Source: Geodermatophilus sp. TF02-6 (GTDB lineage: Bacteria; Actinomycetota; Actinomycetes; Mycobacteriales; Geodermatophilaceae). Taken from it: 64,000 nucleotides of DNA. The translations under genes and the position numbers were made by a program. Position 1 is the first letter of the stretch. Each line of letters begins with the position of its first letter. Of the stretch, positions 51,436 to 61,515 are shown piece by piece. The notes under the pieces were generated by a model. It was not told where the DNA came from and did no database searches. It saw only the letters and a program-made list of their open reading frames with translations. The DNA is taken from NCBI RefSeq assembly GCF_003319115.1, contig NZ_QOHF01000001.1, forward strand, positions 310,001 to 374,000, written 5' to 3'.

Positions 51436-52287
51436 TCAGCCGTGGGCGAGCAGCCCTCCCAGGACCCCCACGTCGGTCAGGTCCAGGTGGGGACGCACGT
51501 CCTCGGGCAGGTCGGTGAACGACTCCGCGTGGCCGATGCCGGTGTGGACGGCGACGGCCACCGCGCCGCCCTCGTGCGCCATCGGGACCTCCAGTTCGGG
51601 GTCGTCGCCGACGACGGCCAGCTCCGCGGCAGGGACGCCGAGGTGCCGGGCCGCCGCGCGCAGCGCCTGCAGCGACGGCTTGCCGACGACGGTCACCCGG
51701 CACCCGGTGATGTCGCGGACCACCGCGGAGATCGCCCGTGAGGTGCCGAGCGTGCGTCCCTCCGCCGTGGCGAAGAACGGTGACTGGGAGGCGCTGTAGA
51801 ACGTCGCTCCCTCGAGGACGGCGAAGCAGGCGGCCTCCAGCGCCTCGAAGGTGAGTTCCTGCCGGTACCAGCCCGCGAAGACGGCGTCTGCGGTCGTGCC
51901 GGGCAGCGGCGGCAGAGTCTCGATCCCGGCGGCCTCGAGCGGCTCGGTGACGCCCTTGCCACCGAGCACCACCACCCGGCGGTGCCCGCGCCGCCGGAAG
52001 ACCTCGACCGCGGCGGTGGCCGGCGTCAGCACCGCGTCGTCGGGCACCGGGAGGCCGGCCTGCTGCAGGGCGTCCGCGCACTGCGTCGGGGTCTTCACGG
52101 TGCCGTTGGTGAACACGCAGAACCGCAGGTCCCGCTCCACGAGCAGACGGACGAACTCCACGGCTCCGGGTAGGGCACGCAGCCCCCGGTTGTCGCGGTC
52201 CCCGAGGACCAGCGTGCCGTCCATGTCCAGCACGAAGCCGCGCACACGGCGCAGGCGGTCCAGGACGGCGGGGCCGGGTTCAGACAC
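51436..52287 (-). CDS. HAD-superfamily phosphatase (NagD-like)
   Basis: 283 residues. [12 protein letters not shown] is the nucleophile motif I, FTNGTVKT motif [11 protein letters not shown] the Lys motif III and [12 protein letters not shown] motif IV, as in type II-cap HAD phosphatases. It removes phosphate from small molecules. It is the last gene of the carboxylase operon and overlaps the carboxyltransferase gene by 8 bp (start GTG 52287). In a pathway using a phosphorylated intermediate it could remove dead-end phosphates (inference). Confidence 0.88.
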
Positions 52288-53761
52288 GGACGGTCCCCTC
52301 CCTCCGGCGGTGCACGAACAGGCGCAGGTCGGGCTTGCCGACCGCCAGGTCGTGCACGGTCGTCCGCTCCCCCAGTTCGCGCAGCAGGGTGAGCACCGGC
52401 GTCAGGGTCGGGTTGTAGTGCTCGGGCGCGGGCCCGGCGGCGAGCATCGCGTCGACCTGCTCGGCGGGCATGTGCGCCCGCAGCAGCAGCTCCTCGTCGC
52501 TCATCGCGGAGCCGAACTGGCGGCGCAGTTCCTCCGGGGACGGGGGTGGGGGCTCCGACTGCAGCTCCCGGGCCCGCGGCCGGTCGAGGATCCGGTCGAG
52601 CACGTCCGGGTCGATCGGGGCGGTGGGCCGGCCGAAGCTGCCCAGCGCGTACCGGATCACCTGGTCGGGCACGGTCGACCAGCGCTCCCCGATCACGTTG
52701 AACAGCGCCTGCGAGACCACCATCTGGGGGAACGGCGTCACCATGATCGGGTGGCCGAGTTCGGCGCGGACCCGGCCGACCTCCTCGATCAGGCTCTCGA
52801 ACCGGTCCTCCATGCCGATCTCCCGCAGTTGGCGGCGGGTCGTCGTCAGCACGCCCCCGGCGATCTGGTGGTGCAGGAACGCGGCGTCGAAGTCCTGCGG
52901 TCGCCCGGCGGGGAGCTCCTCCGCGGTCGCCAGCCGCTCGAAGAAGTCGCAGGCCAGGCCGAGCGCGCGGTCGTCGACGTCGACGCGGTGGCCCATCTCG
53001 CGGAGGTTGGCCACGGTGCGGCGCACCTCGGGCAGCGACGAGCCGTTGCCGAGCGGCCCGCAGCCGGTCTGCACGACCTCCACGCCGAGCTCGGGCGCGA
53101 TGGAGTAGGTCTGCGGGGAGAGCCCGATGGTGGCGTGCGAGTGCAGCTCCAGCGGCACGTCGCCGAGCTGGGACTCGATCGCGGGGAGGAGCGTGCGAGC
53201 GCGTTCGGCGGTGAGGATGCCCGCCGGGTCCTTGACGTAGACGCGGTCGACGTCGGGGCACTCGCGCATCTGGCGGGCGAGGTCGGCGTAGAAGGCGTCG
53301 TCGTGGACGGCGCTGATGGTGAAGGTCAGCGCCGCGACCACCTCGTCGACGCCGGCCTTCTTCAGCCGGCGGGCGGTGGCGCGGGCGGCGTCCATGTCGT
53401 GCATGGGGTCGAGGACGACGACCCGGTCGATGCCGCCCGCGACCAGCCGGTCGTACACCAGCTGCATGGTGTCGGGGTGGGAGTTCTGCCAGGAGATGAA
53501 GCGGAAGCCGGTGCCGATGAACTGCAGCCTGGTCCTCGGCATGAGCGCGCGGGTGCGCCTGAGGAGCTCCCAGGGGTCCTCCCGGTGGGTGCGGACCAGC
53601 ATGCCCATCGCGGTGCTGGAGCTGTAGTCCAGTGCCCGGAAGCCGACCCGCTCCAGGATCGGCGCCACCTGCAGCACGTGCGCCGTGCGCAGTCCGGCAG
53701 CACCCCACAGGCTCTGGTTGCCGTCGCGCAGGGAGACGTCGACCAGTCCGACGTCGGCCAT
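52280..53761 (-). CDS. Biotin-dependent carboxyltransferase, OadA/pyruvate-carboxylase-like, altered substrate site
   Basis: 493 residues: HMGL-like TIM barrel (1-~280) plus a conserved carboxylase domain. Catalytic elements kept: SLRDGNQS (D8 to S17), carboxylated K177 (VYVKDPAG), and HSH at 207-209. Changes from pyruvate carboxylases: LRDGHQS reads LRDGNQS; HxHDT reads HSHAT; the LLRGxN segment, whose Arg contacts the pyruvate carboxylate, reads FIGTGF (81-86); and WGGATFD is YSSSTAMG. The substrate is therefore probably not pyruvate. The start is ATG 53761, overlapping the biotin carboxylase stop by one base. Confidence 0.85.
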   Translation of the reverse strand: MADVGLVDVSLRDGNQSLWGAAGLRTAHVLQVAPILERVGFRALDYSSSTAMGMLVRTHREDPWELLRRTRALMPRTRLQFIGTGFRFISWQNSHPDTMQLVYDRLVAGGIDRVVVLDPMHDMDAARATARRLKKAGVDEVVAALTFTISAVHDDAFYADLARQMRECPDVDRVYVKDPAGILTAERARTLLPAIESQLGDVPLELHSHATIGLSPQTYSIAPELGVEVVQTGCGPLGNGSSLPEVRRTVANLREMGHRVDVDDRALGLACDFFERLATAEELPAGRPQDFDAAFLHHQIAGGVLTTTRRQLREIGMEDRFESLIEEVGRVRAELGHPIMVTPFPQMVVSQALFNVIGERWSTVPDQVIRYALGSFGRPTAPIDPDVLDRILDRPRARELQSEPPPPSPEELRRQFGSAMSDEELLLRAHMPAEQVDAMLAAGPAPEHYNPTLTPVLTLLRELGERTTVHDLAVGKPDLRLFVHRRREGTVRV

Positions 53762-60630: not shown

Positions 60631-60720
60631 GGACGAGACGGTCGCCGAGCGCGGTGTGACGGACAACACCTCCTTCCCGGTATCCGGAAACACCCGGCCC
60701 GGCGGCGCGTCGGGAGCCGA

Positions 60721-61515
60721 TCAGCCCGAGCCGCTGGAGGTCGTGACCGCCAGTCCGCTGCGCAGCAGGTCCGCGCTGATCGAGGCCGAGGCGGCCCGCA
60801 GGTGCGGCAGCGCGCCCGCCACCCGCGGGCTGCGCAGCGGGGCCAGCAGGCCGAGGGCGGCGACCACGCCGTCGGAGCCGTTGACCGGGACGGCCAGGGA
60901 GGAGACGCCGAGGCGGTGCTCCTGCGCGCTGCGCGCCACCCCGCTGCGCCGGATCTCCGCCAGCTGCCGGTGCAGGGCCGCCGGGTCGGTGACCGTGTAG
61001 GCGGTGTGCCGCCGGAGGTCGCCGGCGACCCGGGCGACGAGGGCGGGGTCGGCGGAGGCCAGCAGCGCCTTGCCGACCGCGGTGCAGTGCAGCGGGAGGT
61101 TGCCTCCCGGGCTGTGCCGGGTCGGCAGGGTCCTGGTGCCGGCGAGTCGTTCGATGACCAGCGCGCCGGCCCCGTCGAGGACGGCCAGGTGGACCGTGTG
61201 CCCGGTGGCCCCGACGAGGTCCTGCAGGTGCAGCAGGGCCAGCTCGCGCAGCTCGGTGGGCGGCGCGAGCAGCCCCAGTCGCCACAGGAGCGCGCCGATC
61301 TCGTACCGGCCGTCGCCACGACGGACCAGCAGGCGGCTCTCGACCAGGTCGGCGGCCAGACGGTGCACGGTCGCCAGCGGGAGGCCGCTGCGGCGGGACA
61401 GCTGGGAGAGGTTGAGCACCCGGTGGTCGGCGTCGAACGCGCTCAGCAGCGAGGTCGCCCGCACCGTGACCGACCGACGACCCGGCCCACCGCCGGCTCC
61501 CCGGCCGCCGTCCAT
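60721..61515 (-). CDS. IclR-family regulator of the carboxylase operon
   Basis: 264 residues. The winged HTH is at ~20-75 (LNLSQLSRRSGLPLATVHRLAADLVESRLL), and the effector domain has NLPLHCTAVGKALLASADPALVARV. It precedes the CoA ligase on the same strand, with a 90-bp gap, so it could be cotranscribed and autoregulated. The N-terminus is Gly/Arg-rich and probably disordered. Effector unknown, perhaps a ketone or acetoacetate. Confidence 0.87.
   Translation of the reverse strand: MDGGRGAGGGPGRRSVTVRATSLLSAFDADHRVLNLSQLSRRSGLPLATVHRLAADLVESRLLVRRGDGRYEIGALLWRLGLLAPPTELRELALLHLQDLVGATGHTVHLAVLDGAGALVIERLAGTRTLPTRHSPGGNLPLHCTAVGKALLASADPALVARVAGDLRRHTAYTVTDPAALHRQLAEIRRSGVARSAQEHRLGVSSLAVPVNGSDGVVAALGLLAPLRSPRVAGALPHLRAASASISADLLRSGLAVTTSSGSG

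Follow-up and report, generated by a model that had tools for sequence, protein, structure and literature searches.

A candidate operon for phenolic-ketone carboxylation in Geodermatophilus sp. TF02-6, most likely a rearranged relative of the Hpe pathway

The closest described counterpart of the gene cluster reported here is the hpeHICBADEF operon of Rhodococcus rhodochrous GD02, which encodes the hydroxyphenylethanone (Hpe) pathway and was published in 2022 (PMC9618137; for the kinase, PMC12167813). In the available excerpts of these two papers, HpeHI puts a phosphate on the phenolic hydroxyl group of 4-hydroxyacetophenone or acetovanillone, the acetyl group is then carboxylated by HpeCBA, and HpeD dephosphorylates, while activation of the keto acid is proposed for HpeE and its cleavage for HpeF. 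The kinase, carboxylase and phosphatase steps of these homologs have been demonstrated with purified enzymes (PMC9618137, PMC12167813, same excerpts). The characterised two-component relatives that PMC12167813 names, HpeHI, CreHI and PpsAB, act on phenolic hydroxyl groups. Four further complete syntenic genomes are named in the excerpt of PMC9618137, and that of PMC13101465 quotes a clustering of kinase and carboxylase in 52 of 836 cases.

The cluster under study lies between positions 51436 and 61515 of the window, by which we mean the whole stretch of 64,000 nucleotides that was analysed. It consists of eight genes, all on the minus strand and overlapping or closely spaced (Table 1). From the gene of the 361-aa protein to the HAD gene the successive overlaps are 4, 4, 1 and 8 bases, and upstream of the 361-aa gene the gaps are 11, 24 and about 54 bases, so that the eight genes fit one operon. 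A sequence-only reading of this DNA had described this arrangement, and open reading frames with its gene boundaries, for which the start codons were chosen by the analyst, do exist; the domain identities that it assigned agree with the Pfam and NCBIfam matches. Homologs of the IclR-family regulator, 80-82% identical, occupy the same place in two related loci (L006, of Geodermatophilus tzadiensis DSM 45416, and L010). As it closely matches the published phenolic-ketone pathway, the cluster should most likely be seen as a rearranged relative of it rather than as a new acetone carboxylation. Very probably this is an Hpe-type operon that catabolises some phenolic aryl ketone by the chemistry outlined above.

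Table 1. Genes of the cluster (window coordinates)
Feature	Coordinates	Strand	Evidence
IclR-family regulator, cluster's first gene	60721..61515	-	Pfam IclR_C 1e-32, HTH_IclR 2.3e-10
AMP-forming acyl-CoA synthetase, acetoacetate-CoA ligase (AACS) family; HpeE counterpart, proposed aryl-beta-ketoacid CoA ligase	58588..60666	-	TIGR01217 790.6 bits, cut-off 520.9
Kinase alpha subunit, HpeH-like, 606 aa, substrate and swivel domains	56743..58563	-	PEP-utilizers 8.7e-24; NF006153 782 bits
Kinase beta subunit, HpeI-like, ATP-grasp, 361 aa	55646..56731	-	PPDK_N 1.1e-104; top PDB match 9goj_A, E 8.4e-78
Biotin carboxyl carrier protein, HpeC-like, biotin site ETMKM	55125..55649	-	Biotin_lipoyl 1e-14; motif
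Biotin carboxylase (BC) subunit	53761..55128	-	Biotin_carb_N, CPSase_L_D2, Biotin_carb_C
Carboxyltransferase (CT), pyruvate carboxylase/oxaloacetate decarboxylase fold, altered loop	52280..53761	-	PYC_OADA 2.9e-23, HMGL-like 1.3e-07; PDB alignments
HAD phosphatase, HAD-IIA/NagD-related, HpeD counterpart	51436..52287	-	Hydrolase_6 1.9e-22; DMDGT motif; same position in L084, L085

As the sequence reference for hpe we used a plasmid of Rhodococcus sp. JS3073 (L085), GD02 itself being compared through PDB chain 9goj_A alone. On this plasmid the genes for kinase alpha and beta, carrier, BC, CT, HAD protein, ligase and amidohydrolase follow one another in that order. The alignment of its ATP-grasp subunit with 9goj_A takes in all 366 residues and shows 8 substitutions and a single inserted residue, and the code 9goj occurs once in the available text of the HpeI structure paper (PMC12167813). 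Judged from these alignments, L085 is a near-identical hpe operon, which shares the gene order of the window apart from the ligase. Ten plasmid records covered at least 80% of the kinase, and six of them were examined. The second full set that can be named is that of Rhizobium leguminosarum (L084).

The 606-aa and 361-aa proteins had been taken for a split dikinase of the phenylphosphate synthase type, which is right in kind. The mobile domain is the only Pfam match of the 606-aa protein at E 0.001, and the motif of two-component kinases, T/SxxGGxxxH with a Met two positions before the His, is present as SDIGGTMSH with H564 as the phosphohistidine. Kinase alpha is 54.4% identical to that of L084, 52.7% to that of L063 and 49.8% to that of L085 (over 604 aa), and among kinases of other types 45.0% to the phenylphosphate synthase of L086 and 43.3% to the cre-like kinase of L087. 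The beta subunit is 47.7% identical to that of L086, from a phenol pathway, versus 43.8% for L085. In the kinase tree, which was made by a quick method and flags long branches, the window protein belongs to a group of 81 rows, most of them kinases linked to a carboxylase, with the Pps and Cre rows outside; a Thermomicrobium kinase (L088), near which no CT was found, adjoins this group, and L085, the Hpe row, joins at a greater distance. Since L088 branches nearer than L085, the window kinase does not look like an ortholog of HpeH in the narrow sense, and since kinase alpha is only about 50% and CT about 45% identical to L085, the preferred ketone may differ.

Downstream, the kinase is adjoined by a three-subunit biotin carboxylase, whose overlapping carrier, BC and CT genes stand in the same order as in L084 and L085; the BC is 53-58% identical to those of L085, L084 and L063. 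The CT loop reads STAMG in the window as opposed to GATFD in pyruvate/oxaloacetate-type enzymes. The loop is SST, TST or AST in all 63 CTs compared (60 from relatives, L084, L085 and the window), and GGA in the two pyruvate/oxaloacetate-type chains aligned from the PDB. By homology, the proposal that a biotin enzyme makes a 3-keto acid from a phosphorylated ketone is likewise right in kind. After the carboxylase stands a NagD-like HAD phosphatase, which has Pfam HAD matches and for which HAD-IIA models are the top NCBIfam matches, all under their cut-offs. It had been assigned the clearing of stray phosphates, but its counterpart HpeD carries out a step of the pathway, as described in the excerpt of PMC9618137.

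An AMP-forming ligase in the operon is a feature of the GD02 type, and here an AACS-family gene, whose longest open reading frame extends to 60693, is present upstream of the kinase. That it must act on acetoacetate, as had been assumed, does not follow, as the HpeE of L085 scores 766.5 bits on the same model (cut-off 520.9); in such a cluster, "acetoacetate-CoA ligase" can thus be a misleading family label. For the ligase tree, two of 35 candidates were dropped for being shorter than 560 aa, and the remaining 33 were combined with three host ligases, two of which are 40-43% identical to the window ligase. The L085 HpeE is paired with the other AACS of the host, in a group that does not include the window ligase. 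As only one close stand-alone AACS was included, the tree is a weak test of whether a 29-row group is specific to the cluster.

The gene order of the cluster was found again in Actinomycetota, Pseudomonadota and Acidobacteriota. The relatives' loci were picked through exact matches to six peptides of the window 606-aa protein; the 80 best of the 218 were retained, a selection that biases the set to close relatives. Within this biased set, 58 of the 79 loci with the 606-aa protein extend for 5 kb or more past its gene on the downstream side, and in these 58 tblastn with bit-score floors found the ATP-grasp partner, the carrier and CT in 55 each, BC and the HAD protein in 48 each and the AACS in 27; 48 of them hold the complete kinase pair together with carrier, BC and CT. 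Over all 79 loci, the ligase is present in 32. Among 76 genomes of the same family, close homologs (at least 84% identity) of kinase and CT are shared by one set of 9, in each of which they lie no more than 5 kb apart. The conserved co-occurrence for which the sequence-only reading had proposed to search is therefore found, and, judged from its recurrence in the relatives' loci, the gene order is not a product of chance. The 48 of 58 loci seen here, set against the four further genomes of PMC9618137 and the 52 of 836 cases in the excerpt of PMC13101465, suggest that the intact cluster is more widespread than reported, though the denominators differ. Literature searches, which did not name the family, returned no such cluster described for Geodermatophilaceae.

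To go by the homologies and the host genes, the substrate is probably a phenolic aryl methyl ketone, with 4-hydroxyacetophenone as the likeliest candidate. The dikinase would move a phosphate of ATP to its histidine and then to the phenolic hydroxyl group, releasing AMP and Pi, whereupon the three-part biotin carboxylase (52280-55649) would add a carboxyl group from bicarbonate to the acetyl methyl group at the expense of ATP, so that a 4-phospho-benzoylacetate results, and the HAD enzyme would take off the phosphate. The aryl 3-keto acid could then be turned into its CoA ester by the AACS-family ligase, and an amidohydrolase of the CouO/HpeF type, whose gene lies at another place in the genome, could release 4-hydroxybenzoate and acetyl-CoA, of which 4-hydroxybenzoate would pass through PobA- and PcaGH-like enzymes. 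By analogy we infer that the window copies work as their homologs do, on that exact substrate. An enol phosphate, which had been proposed earlier, is not needed for this aryl-ketone reading; in Hpe the phosphate sits on the phenol hydroxyl group (excerpts of PMC9618137 and PMC12167813).

Genes outside the cluster were consulted for the later steps and the substrate. No HpeF hydrolase is encoded within the window operon, while GD02 has it in the operon; the host genome has two HpeF-like hydrolases elsewhere (60-62%), as well as a second AACS (52%). Of the 79 loci of relatives, 70 showed no HpeF-like gene, and contig ends truncate many of these; since SYK-6 also lacks HpeF (PMC9618137, excerpt), this gene does not define the wider family. 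A PobA-like protein of the host, with a score under the curated cut-off (471.6 versus 538.7), is encoded near a pair of PF00775 dioxygenase genes (PcaGH-like). Among demethylases VanA alone was searched, and the one good VanA_C match, in a 196-aa open frame, covers 156 of 193 model positions as a C-terminal fragment, with no VanA N-terminus visible by eye ahead of it in the same stretch. That the host has only this fragment alongside HpeF-like, PobA-like and PcaGH-like proteins favours 4-hydroxyacetophenone. An all-against-all comparison of flanking open reading frames in 36 loci, L084 and L085 included, gave as its largest groups what we take for shadow frames, as their coordinates overlap core genes; the others were an HpeF-like amidohydrolase (10 of 36 loci), proteins of one family with about 309 aa (9 of 36), and smaller groups present in 4-5 loci. 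Pfam and NCBIfam scans of 26 flanking frames from nine loci revealed no consistent substrate gene. A FAD protein in the Prauserella locus L010 has EncM-like oxygenases among its top PDB matches, a list that names no 4-ethylphenol oxidase.

Within the same pathway logic, the natural substrate might be a phenolic ketone that is neither 4-hydroxyacetophenone nor acetovanillone, such as a longer alkyl phenone or an acetophenone with other ring substituents. We regard this sub-case as unlikely. In its favour, a long branch, with L088 in between, separates the window kinase group from the Hpe row, the window ligase falls into a different group from HpeE of L085, and substrate preference differs among the related pathways (PMC13101465, excerpt). 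On the other hand, no identified recurrent flank gene indicates a specific other ketone, and the host genes suit 4-hydroxybenzoate as the product. A related proposal seems similarly doubtful to us: the window group would form a functionally distinct branch of the kinase-plus-biotin-carboxylase pathway, spread across soil actinomycetes, acidobacteria and proteobacteria, and its ligases, most of which fall into a single group, would act on some phenolic ketone besides 4-hydroxyacetophenone and acetovanillone. Far less probable is the original model, in which the enol phosphate of acetone or butanone is carboxylated to acetoacetate for an acetoacetate-CoA ligase. The ligase does score as such an enzyme, and carboxylation of a methyl ketone to a 3-keto acid is common to both models; yet the HpeE counterpart in L085 scores likewise, HpeF-like hydrolases occur in 9 of the 79 related loci, adjoining the ligase gene in four (L031, L035, L039 and L067), and the phenolic targets of HpeHI, CreHI and PpsAB (PMC12167813, excerpt) leave acetone and butanone wrong or unsupported as substrates. 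In Pfam and NCBIfam searches the window proteins matched families other than AcxABC-type acetone carboxylase.

With PEP synthase and pyruvate carboxylase the cluster shares homologous swivel, ATP-grasp, BC and CT domains, which could bring to mind split versions of these two enzymes serving anaplerosis. This we find hardly credible, since in PDB comparisons the match between the 606-aa protein and PEP synthases is confined to the C-terminal phosphohistidine domain (about residues 494-605), the CT loop departs from both pyruvate/oxaloacetate-type chains in 63 of 63 members, and presence is patchy, in 9 of the 76 family genomes at 84% identity or more. It also seems quite improbable, if somewhat less so than the two preceding models, that the ligase belongs to a neighbouring tyrosine pathway and not to the carboxylation operon. 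Genes for HPPD, homogentisate dioxygenase and fumarylacetoacetase, which together yield acetoacetate, do lie at 45219-50700, but not one of these three was found in any of the 79 relatives' loci (E 1e-8; flanks up to 10 kb, many shorter), where the ligase is nonetheless present in 32; moreover, the ligase and kinase genes are separated by only 24 bases, and there is the second AACS in the genome. The acetone, anaplerotic and tyrosine-pathway models were all rejected on the evidence given with each. Of the sequence-only reading, the split dikinase, biotin carboxylase, ligase, phosphatase and co-occurrence stood, while its enol phosphate, its acetone or butanone substrate and its novelty were wrong or unsupported. 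The available text of PMC9618137 (2022) describes hpe and cites acv of SYK-6, so that a pathway with this gene set was on record. What looked like an undescribed ketone carboxylation system becomes, with the Hpe-type reading, a testable prediction of growth on lignin-derived phenolic ketones.

Compared with known systems, the cluster shares with hpe of GD02 (PMC9618137, excerpt) the two-component dikinase, the carrier/BC/CT biotin carboxylase, the NagD-like phosphatase and the AACS-family ligase, and with L085 the order alpha, beta, carrier, BC, CT, HAD. It differs from hpe in that the ligase gene lies upstream of the kinase, HpeF is absent from the operon, in the kinase a Ser takes the place of the Cys that precedes the catalytic His, and its proteins are about 37-53% identical to those of L085. 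PpsAB of Azoarcus sp. KH32C (L086) is likewise a split dikinase (alpha 45.0%, beta 47.7%), but its partners are annotated as phenylphosphate carboxylase subunits and UbiD/UbiX; no ppc/UbiD-like partners stand beside the window kinase, where the genes from kinase to HAD encode biotin carboxylase subunits. The 4-cresol kinase of the CreHI type in Rhodococcus ruber (L087), a locus that we read from its annotation as a cre cluster, is also a split dikinase (alpha 43.3%), but has a P450, ferredoxin and dehydrogenases as neighbours. According to excerpts of the papers from which alone we know it, acvABCDEF of Sphingobium lignivorans SYK-6 is homologous and syntenous to hpeHICBAD, lacks HpeE and HpeF homologs and uses VceA/VceB instead (PMC9618137, PMC13101465), and xccABC of Aromatoleum aromaticum EbN1, which acts on 4-hydroxyacetophenone, is a biotin carboxylase clustered with hpeHI homologs, but in an anaerobic route (PMC9618137).

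Open reading frame calls in the window recovered the complete eight-gene cluster that the sequence-only reading had described, with coordinates and strand unchanged. The catalytic motifs checked are intact in the window proteins (SDIGGTMSH in the 606-aa kinase alpha; ETMKM in the carrier; LRDGNQS, VKDPAG and LHSHAT in the carboxyltransferase, CT; DMDGT in the phosphatase). Judged from sequence, this is a real, conserved and probably functional operon, most likely of the hydroxyphenylethanone (Hpe) type, the enzymology of which is already known for homologs. Acetone, which the same reading had proposed to be carboxylated by way of an enol-phosphate, is unlikely to be the substrate; we favor instead an Hpe-type operon for phenolic aryl ketones.

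Features of the window and of related loci, with the basis of assignment
Sequence	Position	Strand	Feature	Basis
Window	51436-61515	-	eight-gene cluster	ORF calls
Window cluster			IclR	domain searches
Window cluster			acetoacetate-CoA-ligase family	domain searches
Window cluster			606-aa protein: PEP-utilizer mobile domain, sole domain match	domain searches
Window cluster			361-aa protein: PPDK_N	domain searches
Window cluster			carrier: biotinyl domain	domain searches
Window cluster			BC: biotin carboxylase	domain searches
Window cluster			CT: PYC_OADA/HMGL-like carboxyltransferase	domain searches
Window cluster			phosphatase: HAD	domain searches
Window	45219-50700		homogentisate dioxygenase (HGO), fumarylacetoacetase (FAH), IclR, 4-hydroxyphenylpyruvate dioxygenase (HPPD)	HPPD by family models; HGO, FAH read from sequence
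Window	39717-42293	-	858-aa fused dikinase	PPDK_N + mobile domain
L063 (Rhodocyclaceae)	3848-9924, 17235-18077		cluster flanked by DUF1329, RND/MMPL-type transporter, two SDR dehydrogenases
L085	15200-18466		BC before CT
L088	10013-14523		kinase pair + divergent biotin carboxylase gene
G029, contig C8	87441-95723		43% kinase homolog; 49% CT ~5 kb upstream of it

The hpeHICBADEF operon is described as encoding HpeHI, which phosphorylates acetovanillone and 4-hydroxyacetophenone, HpeCBA, which carboxylates these ketones only in their phosphorylated form, HpeD, which dephosphorylates the carboxylation products, and HpeE and HpeF, which are proposed to form and then cleave a CoA ester; among characterized homologs of HpeE, S. 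meliloti acsA2 is the closest (42%), whereas HpeF shares 95% identity with CouO (PMC9618137). HpeHI is described in the kinase paper as an AMP-forming dikinase with an essential His581 within T/SxxGGxxxH, and the PDB code 9GOJ occurs there once (PMC12167813). Our sequence anchor for hpe, locus L085 of Rhodococcus sp. JS3073, came from a plasmid search, and all 366 residues of its ATP-grasp protein align with PDB chain 9goj_A, from which they differ by 8 substitutions and a single inserted residue. The gene order in this operon, which is near-identical to hpe, implies that HpeB would be the BC and HpeA the CT; this agrees with the protein sizes of 49.3 and 57.4 kDa given for hpe and conflicts with the Table 1 labels of the same paper (PMC9618137), the order being that of L085, not GD02.

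Kinase alpha of the window is 54.4% identical to that of L084 (Rhizobium leguminosarum), 52.7% to L063, 49.8% to L085, 48.6% to L088 (Thermomicrobium), 45.0% to phenylphosphate synthase (L086) and 43.3% to a cre-like protein (L087). In a midpoint-rooted tree of 86 rows, built by a quick method and with long branches flagged, it falls inside a group of 81 rows, outside of which lie successively L088, L085, Pps, Cre and haloarchaeal rows; its nearest rows are from Actinomycetospora, Geodermatophilus and Prauserella. Since L088 branches closer to the window kinase than the Hpe row L085 does, this kinase is best regarded as a relative of HpeH, not a narrow ortholog. Kinase beta, the 361-aa protein, is slightly closer to L086 (47.7% identity) than to L085 (43.8%). 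The 21.8-kb stretch of L088, from a Thermomicrobium roseum plasmid, holds no CT match. The fused dikinase of the window, 13 kb from the split one, was listed against 25 NCBIfam models and scores below cut-off on every one of them.

The CT has relatives in the PDB among pyruvate carboxylase beta subunits, oxaloacetate decarboxylase alpha and transcarboxylase 5S. Where two aligned PDB chains read WGGATFD, in a loop that presumably lines the pyruvate pocket, the window protein reads SSSTAMG, and the GGA positions read SST, TST or AST in 63 of 63 CTs, those of L085 and L084 included. This pattern fits a substrate class that these CTs would have in common with HpeCBA rather than pyruvate carboxylase.

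A ligase tree of 36 rows was made by a careful method. Of its 33 ligases from cluster loci, 29, among them that of the window, make up a single group across three phyla (support 95/84), the cluster specificity of which is weakly tested because the tree holds only one close stand-alone acetoacetate-CoA ligase (AACS). The remaining four (L063, L036, L029 and HpeE of L085) group with the second AACS of the host (OWN_L100), with which HpeE pairs, and we infer that the ligase was recruited more than once. Against the acetoacetate-CoA ligase model (cut-off 520.9), the window ligase scores 790.6 bits and that of L085 766.5. HpeF-like proteins occur in 9 of 79 loci (L023, L026, L031, L035, L038, L039, L048, L067, L076), at 54-60% to the L084 amidohydrolase, which matches the eighth gene of L085 at 56%. 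Their gene directly adjoins the ligase gene in L031, L035, L039 and L067. A hydrolase of this kind suits an aryl-3-ketoacyl-CoA.

These 79 loci come from a contig scan with the 606-aa protein, in which the best 80 of 218 relatives were kept, and genes were counted in the 58 that extend 5 kb or more downstream of kinase alpha. The ATP-grasp partner, carrier and CT were each found in 55, BC and HAD in 48 each and the ligase in 27, while ATP-grasp, carrier, BC and CT were jointly present in 48. Seven of the 58 have no BC match at the locus despite ATP-grasp, carrier and CT (L043, L046, L064, L065, L070, L071, L074), and may share a housekeeping BC. CT was not found in three (L033, L036, L040), where it may be cut off, since only 1.5-1.7 kb lies upstream and the tree neighbors L029 and L037 carry the remaining cluster upstream in reverse orientation. 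One cluster (L056) comes from a MAG contig that bears the title Klebsiella pneumoniae; it falls among unnamed Gammaproteobacteria, and the label looks doubtful.

For a less biased sample, 76 genomes of the window's family were picked evenly out of a larger group; at E 1e-60, 13 of them had the kinase and 12 had the CT. Homologs of at least 84% (kinase) and at least 80% (CT) occur in the same 9 genomes, the window's included, always on one contig with under 5 kb between them, so that the frequent separation of kinase and carboxylase that would have spoken against the sequence-only reading is not seen for close homologs. Distant kinase homologs sometimes stand without the carboxylase: four further genomes carry one of 41-46%, G029 with a CT in a different arrangement and G053, G060 and G075 with none at E 1e-60. 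Two others (G019, G039) have CT homologs of 35-38% and no kinase at that threshold.

The genes adjoining the operon look like a tyrosine catabolic cluster. HPPD, HGO and FAH were found beside the cluster in 0 of 79 loci (E 1e-8, within the flanks available), and thus are not conserved there. Elsewhere in the host genome, two HpeF-like amidohydrolases (60-62%) are encoded, one on contig C49 and one on C13, ~39 kb before the window, and C26 carries a PobA-like protein (471.6 bits, under the 538.7 cut-off) with two adjacent PF00775 dioxygenase matches ~1 kb away, which we read as PcaGH-like. The host's VanA-like sequence is a C-terminal fragment only. Together, these matches favor 4-hydroxyacetophenone over acetovanillone as the predicted substrate. 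The genes flanking the L063 cluster are, as we take it, reminiscent of the Aromatoleum 4-ethylphenol operon.

In L085, kinase alpha, kinase beta, carrier, BC, CT, HAD, ligase and amidohydrolase follow in a single run, and L084 has the same eight-gene set by annotation. The window operon differs from this Hpe arrangement in that it is without HpeF and has its ligase upstream.
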